Below, in pieces: positions 2,096 through 44,435 of a stretch of 64,000 nt of DNA. The stretch comes from a virus. A model generated the notes under the pieces. The model was not told where the DNA came from. It saw only the letters and a program-made list of their open reading frames with translations, and searched no databases. The first letter of the stretch is position 1; every line of letters starts with the position of its first letter. The DNA is taken from IMG/VR virus record IMGVR_UViG_3300034019_000586, positions 1 through 64,000 of that record. One strand, given 5' to 3'. A program made the position numbers and the translations under genes.

Positions 2096-5000
2096 ATGGC
2101 AAAAGACGAGATCATATTTGGATTAAGTGGCGGTATAGATACCGATAGCGATGTAAGGAATGTTGCTAAAGGTGATTACCGTATGTTTGAATATTGTAGG
2201 CTTGGTCAGGTTGGTGGTGAGGGGTTTTCTGTAATTACTTCGTGGGGTACGGTAGAAGTTCCCAATGGTGGAATTAGTTCAGAGGACGTAATTGTTGGTG
2301 CTTGCGAGTGGACAAAGCAGTACGCCATAGTTTATTTGGTTTACCGTCCTTCGGCTGACGACCAAATTTGGATGTATGACATTTCACTTGGTACGCATAC
2401 CCTTGTTGCCGAGAGTTCAGAATTTAATTTTAACCCCGAATATCCTGTATTTCACTTAGACATTATTGAGGATTTGGCAAAGTGGGCGGGAGGAGTTTTT
2501 AACGAGGAATTATTTGACCCCACCGACGGTTCAATACTTTACAATTTCCCTTCTCAACTTAATTTAAGAAAGGCATTAGACGGGGAATACACAAGCATAG
2601 ATTGGAGTGTTGTAAGCGCGATCAAGTGGCCTCCACCTTCACCTTCGGTAGTTTATTTCACCGATCAGACAAGGGCAGACAATAAATTAAGAAGAAAACT
2701 ATACCGTTTTAGGGTTCAGTATATCTACGAAAACAATGAGGAAACCACTTGGTCAATGTGGTCTAACCTTGCCTTGCCTACACAAAGCGAGTTTATATCT
2801 GGAAATAATTGGCCTGATTCAAGTCAAGACAACGGTATAAGAATAACGCTTGCAACGGGAACGGAAGCGGTTAAGAGAATTAATTTAGCGGTTCAAACCT
2901 ACGACGACAACAACGGTGGTGTAGATGGTGGGTTTGGGATATTTATTCAGTTTAACAAGTCAGAACTTTCTATACCCAACAATAGCACGTTTACTTACGA
3001 CTTCTACGGAAACGTAAACCTAAAACCGATAAGTAATTTAGATGGCAACTACGATAGATTGCCGATATGGGCAAGATGTCAAAGCGTAGTTGACACTTCA
3101 AAGGTTGCATACACAAACTTGATTGAGGGCTATGACAAAGACGTGGAACTTGACGTAACCACAACACCAGTTTACAACGAAATAATTTGGAATCCGTTAA
3201 GTGGGGTTATTAATGTTTTGTCGGCAAATACATCACCATCTTGTTCTCTTTCATGGGTAACTGACGCTGTTTTTACTGTTGCACAAGGAAATACTTTTTC
3301 AGGAAGTTTTACCCTTACAAACGGGCAAGTATTACTTTTAACCTATACTATTAATCAAACCGATATTGAAGAAGCACTTTTAGAGGCAACGCCCGAACTT
3401 CAAATGGACGTTATTTTAGAAATAATTCTCAATAATTTTGCGGAACAGGCAGAGGCAATATTAGGTGTTTCAGTAAGTGTGTCAGGCAATTTAATTAATT
3501 TAAGTGGCGGGCCTGAATGGGCTGAAAATTCATTTCAAATGACGCCTCAAAGACAAACGCTTTCAACCCCGTCGTTTAAGGTTGGCGCAACGCACCCTTT
3601 TGGGATAGTTTATGGCGATGAGGCTTTTCGTGATTCTACGGTAATTACAGGCAGCGGATTAAATATGTTCGTGCCTTGGTATGCTGATCTTGATTTAAGT
3701 TCGTTTACCGACCCTCGAAATCCATTTACTGTATCTGCGCAAATGACAATTAATCACTTGCCTCCAATATGGGCTAAGTATTATTGGATAGTTTGGCGTA
3801 AAGCGACTGAAATAGCTGATTTTTCGCAATGGATAATTAATGCTTTTATACCTGCGGGAGATGCTGCGGGAACGGCTATTGTGTCCGAAAGTAATAGGTT
3901 CGTAATATCACTTGATAAATTTTACATTGAAAATTACAACGGAGCGAGTATTAATCATGTACCGCAGAAAGGGGATGTTGCGCGGTTTATACGTCAGCGG
4001 CTTAATTCAAGTAGTGGCAACATATCGGATTACGTGCCTACATTTTTTGAGTTAGAGGTAATGGAGTATCTTCCTTCGGCGGTTGGTTCAGATGGGCGGT
4101 CACAGATTATTGTTGAGATATTTGACAGGACTTTAGTTGACATTGATACTTGGACAGGTCAGTTGATTGAAATTTATACCCCACAGCCAACTTTGAACGA
4201 GGACGGAACTTTGTTTGTTGCTCCTTGGCGGGATGGAAGTGAAACACTTGAAATTATTAACCCACACACCAATAGCAGGGCGCATCAGGGTTCAGATGTT
4301 AGTGGTTTGGTTTCGTTTGATGGTGAAATTGGTGACGTTTCTTTTGTAACAACAACAGACCTTACAAACTATTTAGCAGACCCCTATAATGGATTAGTAA
4401 CACTAACCAACAATGACAACGAAACAGAAACCGTTGAAACAGGCGCAATCGTTGATTTAGGTGGTGGTGATTTTAAGATAAACATTAACGGCACTCTTAC
4501 TTTTGATTTTTCTTCGGCAAATGGTGGCTCTTTTGTTTTAACTACAAGCCAACAAGTTTCAGATGGCGTTTCTTTACTTGCTGCAAAACTTAATATTAGT
4601 TGGGGCGACGTTTATGTTCGTCAAAGAAACTATGCTACGGGTTACAATACGGGTTCATTTGGTATTGGAACTAATGCTTTTTGGTTTATTGAAGACCCAC
4701 ACTATTCAGATTATTGGTTGAGTAATATTCACCAATACGGAAGGTTAAACATTGAACTTGATAACGCTAAACAGCAACACAGGATAGCGACTTCAATTCA
4801 TTCTGATTCATATTTTACCGACACCGACATTAACGGAACTTCTTCTTTTTCATTGCTTAACGACAACATAATGGACATGAACCCGCTTTATGGCGAAGTT
4901 GTCAAAACAGTTGTTTCGGGAAGGGAAGAAAAAACGTTAAAATGTATTCAGGAACGGAAGGAGAACTCAATTTATATCAAGCACTATCCCGATGTTGCGC

Positions 5001-36546: not shown

Positions 36547-36625
36547 TGTTATTGTTTTTTCGTTAATTAATCCATATCCGCGAACACTTGTTGAATATGT
36601 GCAGTAAAATCATCCATAGCTGGTA

Positions 36626-36632
36626 GTTAGGT
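36626..36632 (-). repeat. Left half-site of the cassette array (R'' core only)
   Basis: Minus strand ACCTAAC containing the stop codon of the last cassette ORF. No matching GTTRRRY partner follows within the next 80 nt, so the final attC is truncated or joined to phage DNA here. Confidence 0.6.
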
Positions 36633-36863
36633 GCAAGGCTCGTACAACGGACAAGCTGCATCCTTACATTTAATCTTTAGCAAACCATTATCAGTTCGGT
36701 TGCTTTTCCGAACTCCGCAATATTGAAAAACCTTGCTGTTACATTCCCACCGTTGGCGATGCTCACAAGAATTACAAGTAAGCCCAGCACCTAACAATGG
36801 TTTTGCGTCAGGCAGGCTGAACAGCGTTGGTTGAACATTTGTGGTTAAATCATCTTTATTCAT
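36627..36863 (-). CDS. Cassette 7: Cys-rich small protein
   Basis: A 78-residue protein with eight Cys in its C-terminal 50 residues (CNSCEHRQRWECNSKVFQYC, then CKDAACPLYEPC), a likely zinc or iron-sulfur fold. Its first about 28 residues are encoded by attC-A, since the ATG lies in the loop of that site. The stop TAA sits in the R'' core at the left edge of the array. Function unknown. Confidence 0.72.
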   Translation of the reverse strand: MNKDDLTTNVQPTLFSLPDAKPLLGAGLTCNSCEHRQRWECNSKVFQYCGVRKSNRTDNGLLKIKCKDAACPLYEPCT

Positions 36864-36922
36864 TCTATTGAAATTTAGTGGTTAAAATCCTGCCCGAACG
36901 CAAAGCCATCGGACGTTAGCTG
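36788..36922 (-). repeat. attC-A
   Basis: About 135 bp. ACCTAAC at 36789-36795 and GTTAGCT at 36915-36921 bound arms sharing TTTGCGT...GGCAGG with CCTGCCCGAACGCAAA, with unpaired bases between. The loop contains the ATG of cassette 7. Minus orientation is taken from ORF direction. Confidence 0.75.
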
Positions 36923-37125
36923 CCATTGTAATGTGACACCACACAAGGGCATCTTTTACCATAATCAGGCATAATAACTTTATCGCATAGATTTACACTT
37001 ACACCACATAAGCAAGTTTGTTTTACCTTGCTGTAATCTACCTCCGATTGAGGAGGAATAACGGCAGCTAACAAGCGGTTAGCGTCATTGCCGTTTTCGT
37101 GTTTTATTAAATTTTCTGTTTTCAT
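36916..37125 (-). CDS. Cassette 6: small Cys-rich protein
   Basis: A 69-residue protein. Residues 1-22 (MKTENLIKHENGNDANRLLA plus two) are encoded by attC-B. The cassette proper gives a Cys-containing domain (CLCGVSVNLC and KRCPC) that may bind zinc. The TAA lies in the AGCTAAC core of attC-A. I start at 37125, because the longer frame would read through the whole palindrome. Confidence 0.68.
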   Translation of the reverse strand: MKTENLIKHENGNDANRLLAAVIPPQSEVDYSKVKQTCLCGVSVNLCDKVIMPDYGKRCPCVVSHYNGS

Positions 37126-37199
37126 ATCAAATTTATTTTTAAAGTTAAAGTTTTGTGTTCCAAAGTCGGCAACGAACGCCAACCGCCAAAACGTTAGGC
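37066..37199 (-). repeat. attC-B
   Basis: About 134 bp. AGCTAAC at 37066-37072 and GTTAGGC at 37193-37199. The arms share GCGGTT, GCGT and TTGCCG with mismatched bases between. The loop carries the cassette 6 ATG. Its inner arm is identical over about 31 nt to the right half-site at 39723-39753. Confidence 0.76.
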
Positions 37200-37217
37200 G
37201 ATATGCCAACAGACACC

Positions 37218-37652
37218 CTACAACGGTTGAGTGATTTGATTACGAAGTATATCATAAAATACATTTCGTGACAAAGCACCCAAACAAATAAAATCGGGCT
37301 TCATTTCATTTAAAGCTAATATTTCAGGAATAGCAATAAATAAATCTTCATCAGTAAGTTTTTTAATTAAATCACAATCCATTTCTATAACAGTACCTTT
37401 TGTTTTGAAATATCTTTGTTGTAAGTATTTTGTATATGCTTGTGTAGCATCTGCAATTACACCATACGTTTCGTTTGGGTTTTGCCTTGTAGCCCAACAA
37501 ACGAAAGCACCTTTAAAATCATTTATCATTAAATGAAATTTATCATTCAAATAATTTGCCGAAATGTCAGCGTTTGTCAATTTGTGAACTGACTTGTCTT
37601 TAATTTGTTTTGGAGTTAAGTCAATAACTTCTTTTTGATTTTCTGTACTCAT
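37218..37652 (-). CDS. Cassette 5: hypothetical protein
   Basis: A 144-residue soluble protein (for example HLMINDFKGAFVCWATRQ), no recognised family. Unlike four of its companions its ATG lies 44 nt outside the upstream attC-C, the classical arrangement. The stop is about 20 nt before the attC-B core. Confidence 0.7.
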   Translation of the reverse strand: MSTENQKEVIDLTPKQIKDKSVHKLTNADISANYLNDKFHLMINDFKGAFVCWATRQNPNETYGVIADATQAYTKYLQQRYFKTKGTVIEMDCDLIKKLTDEDLFIAIPEILALNEMKPDFICLGALSRNVFYDILRNQITQPL

Positions 37653-37695
37653 TTTATATTTATTTAAAGTTTAAAATTTTAATAAAGGCACAATC

Positions 37696-37827
37696 GCCTA
37701 ACATCGGTTTTGTGCAAGTGGGGCTGAATTGCTAAATTCAACAGCGGTAATTCTAATCGGCTTTTGTGCTGAATTGAAACTTTCGTGTTCCAAATCCCCA
37801 CCTGCACAAAGCCGCAACACGTTATAG
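37696..37827 (-). repeat. attC-C
   Basis: About 132 bp. GCCTAAC at 37696-37702 and GTTATAG at 37821-37827. Arms GGTTTTGTGCAAGTGGGG and CCCCACCTGCACAAAGCC pair with one or two mismatches. It is the clearest palindrome of the array. The loop shares TTTGGAACAC with attC-B. Confidence 0.8.
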
Positions 37828-38211
37828 GGCATTTAACCGAGCCACCACATCAGCAGACGTATGACCGTCAAACTCAAATAATGCTCTATCCTTTGCAGGT
37901 ATTTTGAATAAATCCCAATCTTTCAATTCATAGTGGTTTGATATTTGACCTGTTGGCAATACTGCAACAACGATAAACCAACCACCACCAAAGCAATATT
38001 CTCCATCGTGATGCCTAATTGATTTGTGAACATTGTATTGTGGTATATCAAACTTTGCCCACTCATTGAATAGTGCAGCATTGTAAGTTTTCCTAAACTC
38101 ATACAATTCATTAAATGTCTGATAACCGTCAGAGTAGTTTCCCCTAACATCAGCAGGTGTATTATCAATACCCTTTTGAACTGATAAAATAATTCCGTTT
38201 TGTCCTTGCAT
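37822..38211 (-). CDS. Cassette 4: conserved phage-type protein ending DGHTSADVVARL
   Basis: A 129-residue protein (start MQGQNGIILSV; the longer frame only translates attC-D). It has YSDGYQTFNELYEFRKTYNA, HHDGEYCFGGGWFIVVAVLP and WDLFKIPAKDRALFEFDGHT. This protein type recurs in many phages as a small early gene of unknown role. Finding it here as a cassette suggests traffic between phages and integrons. Its TAA lies in the CTATAAC core of attC-C. Confidence 0.78.
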   Translation of the reverse strand: MQGQNGIILSVQKGIDNTPADVRGNYSDGYQTFNELYEFRKTYNAALFNEWAKFDIPQYNVHKSIRHHDGEYCFGGGWFIVVAVLPTGQISNHYELKDWDLFKIPAKDRALFEFDGHTSADVVARLNAL

Positions 38212-38231
38212 TTTTGTGTAAAATAAACGCC

Positions 38232-38361
38232 CTATAACATACGCTATACAAAAGCAGGGGCGAACTGCTAATACAAGCGGTGTGCATCTATTTTTCATTT
38301 GTGGTAGGCTGAAAGGGAGTGCATCTTAACCCCTGCCTTCGTATAGCGTCAGCCGTTAGCC
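38232..38361 (-). repeat. attC-D
   Basis: About 130 bp. CTATAAC at 38232-38238 and GTTAGCC at 38355-38361. Arms ACGCTATAC...GCAGGGG and CCCCTGC...GTATAGCGT pair well with unpaired bases near the cores. Confidence 0.8.
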
Positions 38362-39153
38362 GCAATACGCAGACACCCGACTGACGGCAATTTCAAAATA
38401 CTTTTCATCTTTTTCTATTCCGATAAAGTGGCGACCTGTTTTTTTACAAGCGACACCTGTTGTTCCAGAACCCATGCAATTATCTAAAACAGTTTCGCCT
38501 TCGTTTGTATAAGTATTAACTAAGTAATCAAATAAAGCTATTGGTTTTTGGGTTGGATGAAATTTTCCATCAAATTCAGCAGTCGTAAAATACTGTACAC
38601 TTCTCGGCAATCTCATGCCATCCTCTGATTTTCTTATGTGGCTATGGTAGTTCGGTATGTTATTTGAAACTTCGGGGTTATCGTGTTTCTCTTTTACACC
38701 ACCTCTGTAATATGGTTTCCCTTGTGTTTTTTGTGGATAATAATTGGGAGTTCCGTTAGCAAATACAAGTACATTTTCGTGTGCTTTCAATGGCTGTTTT
38801 TTAGCCAGCAAAAAATTACTTGCTTTGCTTTTTTCCCAAATCCATTCGTATTTAAACATCTTTGGATTACTCATTACTAAGGCACTTGTAAAAGGCTGCG
38901 AAGCCGTTAAAACTATTGCACCATTATCTTTTATAACTCTTTCGTAATGTTTCCAAAGTGGTTCAAAAGGTATTACACTATCCCACTTGCAAGCAGTAGT
39001 TCCATAAGGCAAATCACACAAAATCATATCCACACTTTTATCTTCAATCTTATCCATTTCTACAAGGCAATCACCCTGATAGAATGTACTGCGGCTAACA
39101 TTGCATTGCTGAACATTGCCAGCTTCATCGGTAATTTGAACTTTGTATTCCAT
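38356..39153 (-). CDS. Cassette 3: DNA methyltransferase (beta-type N6A/N4C)
   Basis: A 265-residue enzyme with catalytic DLPYG at 47-51 before the SAM-binding LDNCMGSGTTG at 223-233, the order of beta-class amino-methyltransferases. The target-recognition part lies between them. About the first 20 residues (MEYKVQITDEAGNVQQCNV) are encoded by attC-E, and the TAA lies in the GGCTAAC core of attC-D. No partner endonuclease is nearby, so shielding phage DNA from host restriction is the likely use. Target sequence is unknown. Confidence 0.88.
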   Translation of the reverse strand: MEYKVQITDEAGNVQQCNVSRSTFYQGDCLVEMDKIEDKSVDMILCDLPYGTTACKWDSVIPFEPLWKHYERVIKDNGAIVLTASQPFTSALVMSNPKMFKYEWIWEKSKASNFLLAKKQPLKAHENVLVFANGTPNYYPQKTQGKPYYRGGVKEKHDNPEVSNNIPNYHSHIRKSEDGMRLPRSVQYFTTAEFDGKFHPTQKPIALFDYLVNTYTNEGETVLDNCMGSGTTGVACKKTGRHFIGIEKDEKYFEIAVSRVSAYCG

Positions 39154-39226
39154 ATCAACTTTTTATTTTAAATTAAACATTTTTGCTTCTAAATTGGCAA
39201 CGTCAGCAATACGCAAACCGTTATGT
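39093..39226 (-). repeat. attC-E
   Basis: About 134 bp. GGCTAAC at 39093-39099 and GTTATGT at 39220-39226. Arms TTGCATTGCTGAACATTGCC and GGCAACGTCAGCAATACGCAA pair with scattered mismatches. It contains the methyltransferase start codon. Confidence 0.77.
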
Positions 39227-39231
39227 GCCAT

Positions 39232-39396
39232 TTAATCGACACGCTCCTCAACTATCTTTGTTAATGCCCCACCAACTCTCATCTCATTAAGTTGCTTTTC
39301 ACTTTCAATCGCTTTCTCCATTGTGGAATTTACACTCCAAATAACATCTTTTGGGGGTGCTTCACAATCAAGAACAATATAAACGGCACATAACAC
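39232..39396 (-). CDS. Cassette 2: small protein (up to 54 aa)
   Basis: An open frame ending MRVGGALTKIVEERVD. The first possible start is GTG at 39396, inside the R' arm of attC-F. The first ATG is downstream and would give about 29 residues. Coding-like composition (VYIVLDCEAPPKDVIWSVNS) supports the longer form. It may be a fragment. Function unknown. Confidence 0.5.
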   Translation of the reverse strand: MLCAVYIVLDCEAPPKDVIWSVNSTMEKAIESEKQLNEMRVGGALTKIVEERVD

Positions 39397-39483
39397 GTGC
39401 TATAAGCAAGTTTGCCAATAACATTTGTGCTAAATTTGAACATTTCTGCAAGGCAAACCTGCTCATAGCACCATACGTTAGCG
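39388..39483 (-). repeat. attC-F
   Basis: About 96 bp, the shortest site. ACATAAC at 39388-39394 and GTTAGCG at 39477-39483. Arms GTGCTATAAGCAAGTTTGCC and GGCAAACCTGCTCATAGCAC pair with two mismatches. Confidence 0.8.
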
Positions 39484-39487
39484 GCAA

Positions 39488-39766
39488 TTAAAAAAACCAC
39501 CGCACCAAATCCATTCCGCTTGACTTATAATTTTGTTTTTCCATTAAATCAAATGGTATTTTTTTAACCATTGCATCAGGCAATCTTAAATTGGTGTATT
39601 GAGTGTATCTTTCTAATTTAAGTGTTCTTCCATCGCCTGAACAAAATTGATAACAAGCTCCATTATAGAGAATGTAATCTCCTTTTTTCACTGTGTATTC
39701 TTTTCGCCCAATCTTAACTGCCGCTAACAAGCGGTTAGCGTCATTGCCGTTTTGTGTTTCGTTCAT
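39488..39766 (-). CDS. Cassette 1: small protein coupled to the phage operon
   Basis: A 92-residue protein. Its first 17 residues include NGNDANRLLAAV, also found in cassette 6 because both come from attC sequence. The rest (EYTVKKGDYILYNGACYQFC and on) looks like a small beta-barrel. Its ATG overlaps the stop of the phage gene upstream (ATGA), so the array is fused into the phage operon at translation level. Function unknown. Confidence 0.72.
   Translation of the reverse strand: MNETQNGNDANRLLAAVKIGRKEYTVKKGDYILYNGACYQFCSGDGRTLKLERYTQYTNLRLPDAMVKKIPFDLMEKQNYKSSGMDLVRWFF
39722..39750 (-). repeat. Right half-site of the cassette array
   Basis: CGCTAAC followed by GCGGTTAGCGTCATTGCCG, nearly identical to the inner arm of attC-B. 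The outer arm is absent, and phage coding sequence begins instead, within about 15 nt. Confidence 0.7.
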
Positions 39767-40032
39767 ACTCTACTCAATTTATCGTTCAACTCTTTTCTTA
39801 TTTCATCCGTTCCTTCGATGTTCTCATCGCTGTCGGGCATAGTCAGTTCAAACACATCAAGGCTGCATTGATACATATCAGTGTATTCATCGTAACCAAA
39901 CACGGTTAATTCCATGTAGATGTTAACGCCTTCAAACGTGCTTTCAATAGTGAACGATTCGTTGTCGTTAACGGTGTCAAGGTTTTTGCAGATCAGCGAC
40001 CAGGAGTAGTCTGTCATTGTTTCGGTGTTCAT
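39763..40032 (-). CDS. Small acidic phage protein, upstream of array
   Basis: An 89-residue acidic protein (start MNTETMTDYSWSL). ATG 40032 is chosen because a rare clear Shine-Dalgarno, GGGAGGAAGT, precedes it. Its stop is shared with the start of cassette 1. No family is recognised. Confidence 0.65.
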   Translation of the reverse strand: MNTETMTDYSWSLICKNLDTVNDNESFTIESTFEGVNIYMELTVFGYDEYTDMYQCSLDVFELTMPDSDENIEGTDEIRKELNDKLSRV

Positions 40033-43397: not shown

Positions 43398-44435
43398 TTA
43401 TTTCGACTCGTTAAACTGTCTGATGTCCGCAAGAAGTTTTACCGCGCTTACTTGTCCTACGTTATCTGCCGCCCATCCTGAATGATATTTAGTTGGCAGG
43501 GGCTGAACCGTTTTTATGTAGTAACATTTGCGCGTTCCCTGACCAAAAGCGGAAACAAATTTCACCACGTCGATATTGAAACGATCTTTAAAATACTTCT
43601 TAACCTCTTTTTTGCTCAGTTCGTTTTTTACGTCCGTATGTGTTATTTGGCCCGATTCAGTACGTTGAATAGTTAATTCATTCAAAGCATCTTGAAAAAA
43701 TTCCAACTTTTCAAAGGCGGTTTCATAGTAATTCATACGAGCCATTAACCAGACTTTAAACTCTTGGTTTTGCGCGTCAATGTTTTCAAGTTCGGAGGCA
43801 TACCGCACAACGAATTTATCAAACATTCGCACCGCTTTTTCACCTTCCTTTACTCGATTAATTAAGTATGATTCGTTTTTCAATTCCGATTCAGAAGCTG
43901 AGCGGCGCAACTCTTCTGCGCGTTGTTTGTGTGCTTCAGCTTTTTGAAGTGATTCAAACCCGCGTTCATATCTGTTATACACTTTTTCGCGTTGACGACT
44001 AAATGCGCGGCCACCGCTTGTATTTACGTTGGGTTGAGTTAGCCAGCTCCAATCTTGGCGCAGTTTGTTAAATTCAGACTGTAAACTTTTCGCCTCTTGT
44101 TCACGGCTTGCGGCGTAATTGTCGTACCTGTCCGCCTTGTGTTCGGCGCGTTCTATTTTCTGTTCACGGGCTTCTGTGTATTCTTTACGCTCCTGTGCTT
44201 CTCTAAATTCAATACCGTATTCCTTAACCCTGTAAGGGATGCCGCAATCCTTTGAACGGCTAACCCATGCGCCACGCTGACGCCCCCAGATAAACGCGCT
44301 TTTTATGTCGGCCTTAACTGATTCAGGGAGTGACGAGTATGCGTCCCTGCCGTCTAAATGCAGCTCAATTTTATTGTCTGAATTTAGGATAAAAAAGGCA
44401 TTTTGCAGCCCCTTGATTGTTTCTACTGTGTTCAT
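43398..44435 (-). CDS. DUF3560 domain protein
   Basis: A 345-residue protein. The segment around residues 85-125 (YTEAREQKIERAEHKADRYD, then NYAASREQEAKSL) is the mark of DUF3560, found in phage and plasmid early proteins, often with anti-defence or DNA-metabolism neighbours. The C-terminal 70 residues form a separate domain (VKKYFKDRFNIDVVKFVSAF). It is the second gene after the main leftward promoter, so it is expressed very early. Molecular activity unknown. Confidence 0.8.
   Translation of the reverse strand: MNTVETIKGLQNAFFILNSDNKIELHLDGRDAYSSLPESVKADIKSAFIWGRQRGAWVSRSKDCGIPYRVKEYGIEFREAQERKEYTEAREQKIERAEHKADRYDNYAASREQEAKSLQSEFNKLRQDWSWLTQPNVNTSGGRAFSRQREKVYNRYERGFESLQKAEAHKQRAEELRRSASESELKNESYLINRVKEGEKAVRMFDKFVVRYASELENIDAQNQEFKVWLMARMNYYETAFEKLEFFQDALNELTIQRTESGQITHTDVKNELSKKEVKKYFKDRFNIDVVKFVSAFGQGTRKCYYIKTVQPLPTKYHSGWAADNVGQVSAVKLLADIRQFNESK

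Follow-up and report, generated by a model that had tools for sequence, protein, structure and literature searches.

A probable integrase-less integron in a phage genome: reversed cassettes between an attI-like site and a truncated attC

How could an array of gene cassettes become fused to a phage operon by only half of a recombination site? The question is raised by a DNA stretch of 64,000 nucleotides (hereafter, the window) out of the 66,722 bases of the viral record IMGVR_UViG_3300034019_000586 (G000), in which seven cassettes extending from 36627 to 39766 and bearing minus-strand genes lie downstream of a small phage gene (39763–40032). The comparison with other viral and bacterial arrays suggests that this array is very probably a phage-borne, integrase-less integron with an attI-like site at one end, seven reversed cassettes and a truncated attC at the distal end. 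Comparison established the attI flank, the cassette units, the reversed polarity, the truncation (4/4 occupied relatives) and the cassette movement in other isolates; the exchange of whole cassettes at the G|TT boxes was seen in the sister arrays (lillamy9-2/lillamy9-7 and snork/sniff), not in the window. The locus comprises the following elements (ORF, open reading frame).

36565–36626, plus strand: attI-like flank; crossover between 36626 and 36627 (..GGTAG|TTAGG..)
36627–36915, plus strand: cassette c7 with its attC; gene reversed, ORF 36627–36863 (minus) with the start codon inside the attC; end complementarity 9 nt
36916–37193, plus strand: cassette c6 with its attC (attC-B); gene reversed, ORF 36916–37125 (minus) with the start codon inside the attC; end complementarity 10 nt
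37194–37821, plus strand: cassette c5 with its attC; ORF 37218–37652 (minus), weak Tad5 match below the Pfam cut-off
37822–38355, plus strand: cassette c4 with its attC; ORF 37822–38298 (minus), WDGH domain
38356–39220, plus strand: cassette c3 with its attC; ORF 38356–39153 (minus), N6/N4 DNA methyltransferase, start codon inside the attC
39221–39477, plus strand: cassette c2 with its attC; longest ORF of 37 aa, none convincing as a gene; end complementarity 10 nt
39478–39766, plus strand: cassette c1, attI-distal, with a truncated attC; gene reversed, ORF 39488–39766 (minus); end complementarity 10 nt
39720–39766, minus strand: half attC (core box and inner arm, 39720–39753) and c1 leader, with the c1 start codon at 39764–39766
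39763–40032, minus strand: upstream phage gene, whose TGA overlaps the c1 ATG (ATGA)

The first and the last 9–10 nt of each unit are complementary in 7/7 units of the window (nine locus copies were skipped in this run), and chains of at least three end-complementary units were found in 65 of the 186 loci derived from the attC-arm scans vs. 1 of 186 shuffled ones. Six complete attC-like hairpins lie between the units, the coding strand being the more stable in 6/6. Several cassettes recur elsewhere: c7 has a homologue in L151/L161 (83%), and its upstream attC is common to L151 (score 94); the c6 gene is found in L033 (96%) and L164 (100%), in L033 together with attC-B; the cassettes homologous to c3 in L021 and in the Baltic phages considered below terminate at identical boxes. 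GTTA boxes were present in 235/249 phage modules and 177/203 genome modules. Our array counts are given without L001 and L002, which are copies of the window, and without arrays with less than 60% GTTA/GTTG boxes; one viral scan refers to loci among the matches listed. As to the gene content, Tad5, the sub-threshold match of the c5 protein, is an inhibitor of the Thoeris defence, and with a methyltransferase beside it the array may carry counter-defence genes.

The left end had previously been taken for a half-site, a lone R'' core within a stop codon. The stop codon TAA of the last cassette does lie inside the core GCACCTAAC, there is no second arm, and phage sequence follows; the half-site interpretation has to be given up, since the flank is conserved and attI-like. 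It is 94–97% identical over 66–67 nt in L003 and L005 and is present in L008 too. The plus-strand flank ending in CAGTAAAATCATCCATAGCYGGTAG immediately before the crossover is common to four distinct phages, with slightly variable last bases and a different cassette behind each of them. The "R'' core" thus appears to be better explained as the crossover box of an attI-like site than as half of an attC. A separate observation concerns L005, where the attI-like tail is present twice within 4266–4650; one of the two lies within an internal attC, which looks as though a cassette had taken up a copy of attI.

At the right end, the features noticed in the preliminary description were all found to be correct. 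Only one core box and the inner arm of an attC precede the phage sequence: when 200 nt of upstream sequence (in L008, as much as was available) were searched for the partner of the half arm, the local scores were 5–7 in the window, L003, L005 and L008, those of complete attCs being mostly 10–18. The c1 ORF (39488–39766, minus strand) shares an ATGA with the phage ORF ending at 39763, and hence, on sequence alone, the array overlaps phage translation; the phage gene and c1 are probably translated together. The first ATG within the c1 gene module that opens the longest internal ORF is located 156 nt past the crossover box, so the full c1 protein needs the leader. What is left of the attC here belongs to c1, the cassette farthest from attI; the site breaks off within its loop, at the ATG, and because the crossover-box arm has been lost, c1 should not leave by site-specific recombination. 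Another option, a split attC formed by the array end folding with the leader, was inspected by eye and dropped.

The reported identity of about 31 nt between the leader arm and attC-B (37067–37097) was also confirmed: the 39-nt repeats 37059–37097 and 39715–39753 are identical in their last 31 nt (39723–39753), and the 26-nt core of the shared arm (at most three mismatches) occurs in two places only, with no occurrence in 100 shuffles. Such a repeat could mean that the right end came from homologous recombination between like attC arms, or that array ends were swapped between phages homologously. Apart from the 31 nt shared by the c1 leader and attC-B, this is favored by the identity of the L003 leader arm with an arm of an L033 attC, by the four different first cassettes joined at a single fusion point, and by the recombination-type exonuclease encoded by the phage (phrog_5715). 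However, attC-B recurs with c6 in L033, and so the identity fits a common attC type and alone is no demonstration of intragenomic exchange, local exchange being unnecessary; moreover, the attI and the reversed genes would be left unexplained. We therefore consider homologous exchange an unlikely, though still serious, explanation, which could also act alongside the integron-like one.

When homologous phage cassettes with different neighbors were compared, the attC before the gene was shared in 17/28 pairs (score of at least 80), scored 50–80 in 10/28 and fell below in one, and the attC after the gene was shared in 0/24. The genome arrays gave 0/7 for the attC before the gene and 5/11 for the attC after it (in all pair counts, identical rows were merged and near-copies of one phage kept). 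The assumption that an attC belongs to the preceding gene fits the genomes and fails in the phages, and with it fails the textbook feature of a gene running towards its attC. The arrays of snork and sniff illustrate this: the former has G9-a-G10, the latter G9-new attC-new gene-a-G10, with "a" identical over 119 nt.

The shape of the attCs points in the same direction. They are asymmetric, with a longer outer spacer on one arm. Of 165 distinct phage attCs, 147 have the long-spacer arm 5′ on the coding strand and 2 have it 3′, 5 being even and 11 weak, whereas in Flavobacterium isolates 147 attCs have this arm 3′ and 0 have it 5′. For this count, weakly paired attCs were set aside (11 phage, 5 genome), and for both this and the start-codon count below attC bodies outside 50–165 nt were excluded. 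Ten genome attCs show the phage polarity, all in six metagenome-assembled bins; these bins (L230, L258, L280, L283, L288 and L289) are possibly phage contigs binned as bacteria. Similar attCs of phages and Flavobacterium isolates align on opposite strands (16/16), and the crossover box adjoins the long-spacer arm in both, so the chemistry looks alike and the gene direction alone differs. The longest ATG-initiated ORF starts within the attC in 65/167 phage cassettes with such an ORF vs. 9/155 genome cassettes. At a score of at least 50, the 249 phage modules and the 203 genome modules have no gene module in common. One could argue that the genes are not reversed at all and that the attCs are ordinary ones, cut at their other box by another recombinase, in which case the attC would likewise travel with the gene after it. 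The resemblance on opposite strands and the common position of the crossover box beside the long-spacer arm make this improbable.

If the array had been inserted into the phage at two half-sites, as the preliminary description proposed, array-less relatives should tell. Relatives of the upstream gene were found in six IMG/VR loci, L003/L004 and L005/L006 being near-identical pairs. The locus is occupied in the window, L003, L005 and L008 (7, 1, 3 and 1 cassettes, respectively) and empty in L007 and in L012, the latter reached through the next gene. In both empty loci, the TGA of the upstream gene directly overlaps the ATG of the next phage gene (ATATGAG), which, from its repeats, we read as hexapeptide-transferase-like. 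L007 and L012 contain neither the half-attC leader nor the tail of the opposite end, and in L003 the entire module is flanked by two ATATGA copies, which places the module ends at ATGA, outside both "half-sites". In the occupied phages (4/4), the attC of the first cassette is cut alike, and the ATGA overlap is retained. Although only one core box is present at each end of the array, the junctions do not coincide with the half-sites, neither L007 nor L012 was found to contain an intact target in which the two half-sites are joined, and the left box precedes other cassettes in other phages. A secondary-site insertion at two half-sites is thus highly improbable.

Cassette turnover is best seen in published Baltic phages of Flavobacterium. 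An identical attI flank, ending in ATCATGTAATATTGTAG before the crossover, is present in twelve isolates, with nine different cassettes behind it, and the opposite array end is alike in 6/6 isolates checked. In lillamy9-2 and lillamy9-7 (L322/L323, L327/L328), two isolates of one phage species, a 439-nt cassette is internal in one and adjacent to attI in the other, the vacated site being closed cleanly at G|TTA. The array layout in these phages is thus visibly active, as far as genome comparison can tell. A PF00589 search found no tyrosine recombinase in 12/12 Baltic isolates. Their authors found no lysogeny genes and linked the lack of a methyltransferase with a reduced efficiency of plating on one of the hosts (PMC7077304; for all papers cited here, our statements refer to the portions available to us), and those portions of the main text do not mention an integron or a cassette. 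The published genomes (L100–L105, L321–L326) contain unannotated, methyltransferase-rich cassette arrays, and the host-range methyltransferase of the authors could be one of the cassettes. That the window array is no integron, just a gene-dense phage region with intergenic stem-loops, is hardly credible: its six hairpins all fold well, as could be expected of terminators, but the end complementarity, the exact exchange of units and the movement to attI in lillamy9-2/lillamy9-7 speak against it.

The enzyme remains to be considered. The PF00589 search of the 66,722-base record of the window gave no match to a tyrosine recombinase, and an integrase gene beside attI is absent there and present in other viral contigs, e.g., G012 and L133. 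G012 (169,658 bases) has an automatically built chain of 28 units, the first two or so being doubtful, and a 289-aa XerA-like recombinase directly after the last cassette. Its 93–117 kb region (L311/L312) comprises more than 25 cassettes and their own recombinase, with several proteins having methyltransferase-like starts. XerA-like genes are found at the attI end of the reversed arrays in G012, L133, L214 and L180, and similar genes adjoin weaker arrays in L163 and L114. The long arrays of the Flavobacterium chromosomes L300, L303 and L304 have a related XerA-like gene upstream, reading towards the array. When aligned with IntI1 of R388, 16/16 recombinases (7 viral, 9 genomic) lack the IntI-specific insertion; the recombinase tree (2 changes, with IntI1 on a long branch) is compatible with one group of phage enzymes as well as with more than one. 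We infer that the window array depends on a XerA-like recombinase acting in trans, encoded either by the host or by another phage.

Taken together, the results allow us to propose the following scheme. Along the plus strand, the attI-like site (36565–36626) would be followed by seven cassettes, which would leave and enter at the G|TT boxes beside the attC hairpin in an integron-like manner. As the genes lie backwards in the cassettes, on the coding (minus) strand the attC would precede the gene and often provide its start codon, and the array would be read from the phage operon towards attI. New cassettes would enter at the attI end, opposite c1; c1 itself, with an attC devoid of the crossover-box arm, would be fixed, its ATG replacing that of the next phage gene in the ATGA overlap known from the array-less relatives. 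Most likely, the truncation arose by recombination at the ATGA which kept the operon overlap, thereby leaving c1 as a fixed anchor.

Several points weigh against this scheme. Truncation of its attC should hold a cassette in place, yet the four occupied relatives carry four different distal cassettes. One anchor must thus have given way to another, probably when phages exchanged them, which is the weakest step of our explanation. The start codon within the attC is common in phage cassettes, not universal. The integron core-box consensus GTTRRRY, as quoted by Qi et al. 2023 (PMC9892861), is strictly matched in just 20/249 phage modules (6/203 genome modules). The pair counts are not independent, many of the compared phages being closely related. 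Finally, G000 is classed as linear with no end repeats listed, so that 5′ or 3′ sequence may be missing.

The phage nature of the window is indicated by the phage family matches of its terminase, portal and tail proteins, the terminase and portal corresponding to phrog_6681 and phrog_6547; searches with Terminase_6N and phrog_2 gave zero score even for the phage of the window itself. G024, which has a recombinase and both phrog_6681 and phrog_6547, was considered as a close relative and rejected, as it gave one weak match for 15 window proteins in the parts compared. The Rfam search and the tRNA scan of the window gave no match, nor did the search of genome contigs with the exact half-attC pattern. 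A 345-aa gene (43398–44435) that lies upstream of the array and shares its strand has a weak DUF3560 match below the Pfam cut-off.

If the proposed organization is true, the recombination site and the translation signal become one object: since the more stable attC strand is that of the message, the mRNA would show hairpins in which one gene ends close to the base, with its stop codon, and the following gene has its start codon in the loop. The arrays also show that integron-like systems do not impose one direction on the genes of their cassettes, and the isolated virulent phages offer material where cassette capture could be tracked in the laboratory. Chances appear about even that Bacteroidota phages own a separate integron class, i.e., a pool of reversed cassettes with its own attI and a XerA-like recombinase, carried or borrowed, which shuffles counter-defence genes between virulent phages. 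Here may lie a mechanism for the rapid turnover of phage methyltransferases, the Baltic arrays being rich in them and plating being linked to one methyltransferase (PMC7077304).

Among known systems, the chromosomal arrays of Flavobacterium have the same kind of attC, G|TT boxes and a related recombinase beside attI (L300, L303 and L304), and differ in the ordinary gene direction, the attC after the gene and the absence of a common gene module. The class 1 integron of R388 consists of attI, cassettes, attC and the tyrosine recombinase IntI1, with intI1 pointing away from the array. The phage arrays are built of the same elements, and, when the array is read from attI, the phage recombinase gene also points away from it; unlike IntI1, the phage and Flavobacterium recombinases lack the insertion of ~30 residues, and the phage genes are reversed. 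Since it fails in the gene direction and the IntI insertion and fits the box consensus loosely, we call the array an integron variant. Spirochaetota integrons (PMC9668308) also deviate from the textbook orientation; there, the integrase gene intI is reversed, here, the cassette genes.

The closest parallel in the published text available is provided by the CALINs (clusters of attC lacking integrase) of virulent phages, tandem attC cassettes with methyltransferase genes, in which IntI1 recombined 5/6 of the phage attCs tested (Qi et al. 2023, PMC9892861). Phage attC arrays devoid of an integrase are thus already known, and the window array resembles them in its tandem cassettes, its methyltransferase gene and the lack of an integrase in the phage. 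In P12002L, one of the phages of that study, our detector found two attC bodies of the phage-type polarity. We found no description of reversed phage cassettes in the open-licence PMC literature, outside which lie most subscription papers and all preprints. What distinguishes the arrays considered here from the CALINs, as these are described in the available part of that paper, and what is new as far as the open-licence literature shows, is the reversed cassettes, a phage attI with cassette turnover in a virulent phage, and start codons provided by the attC.
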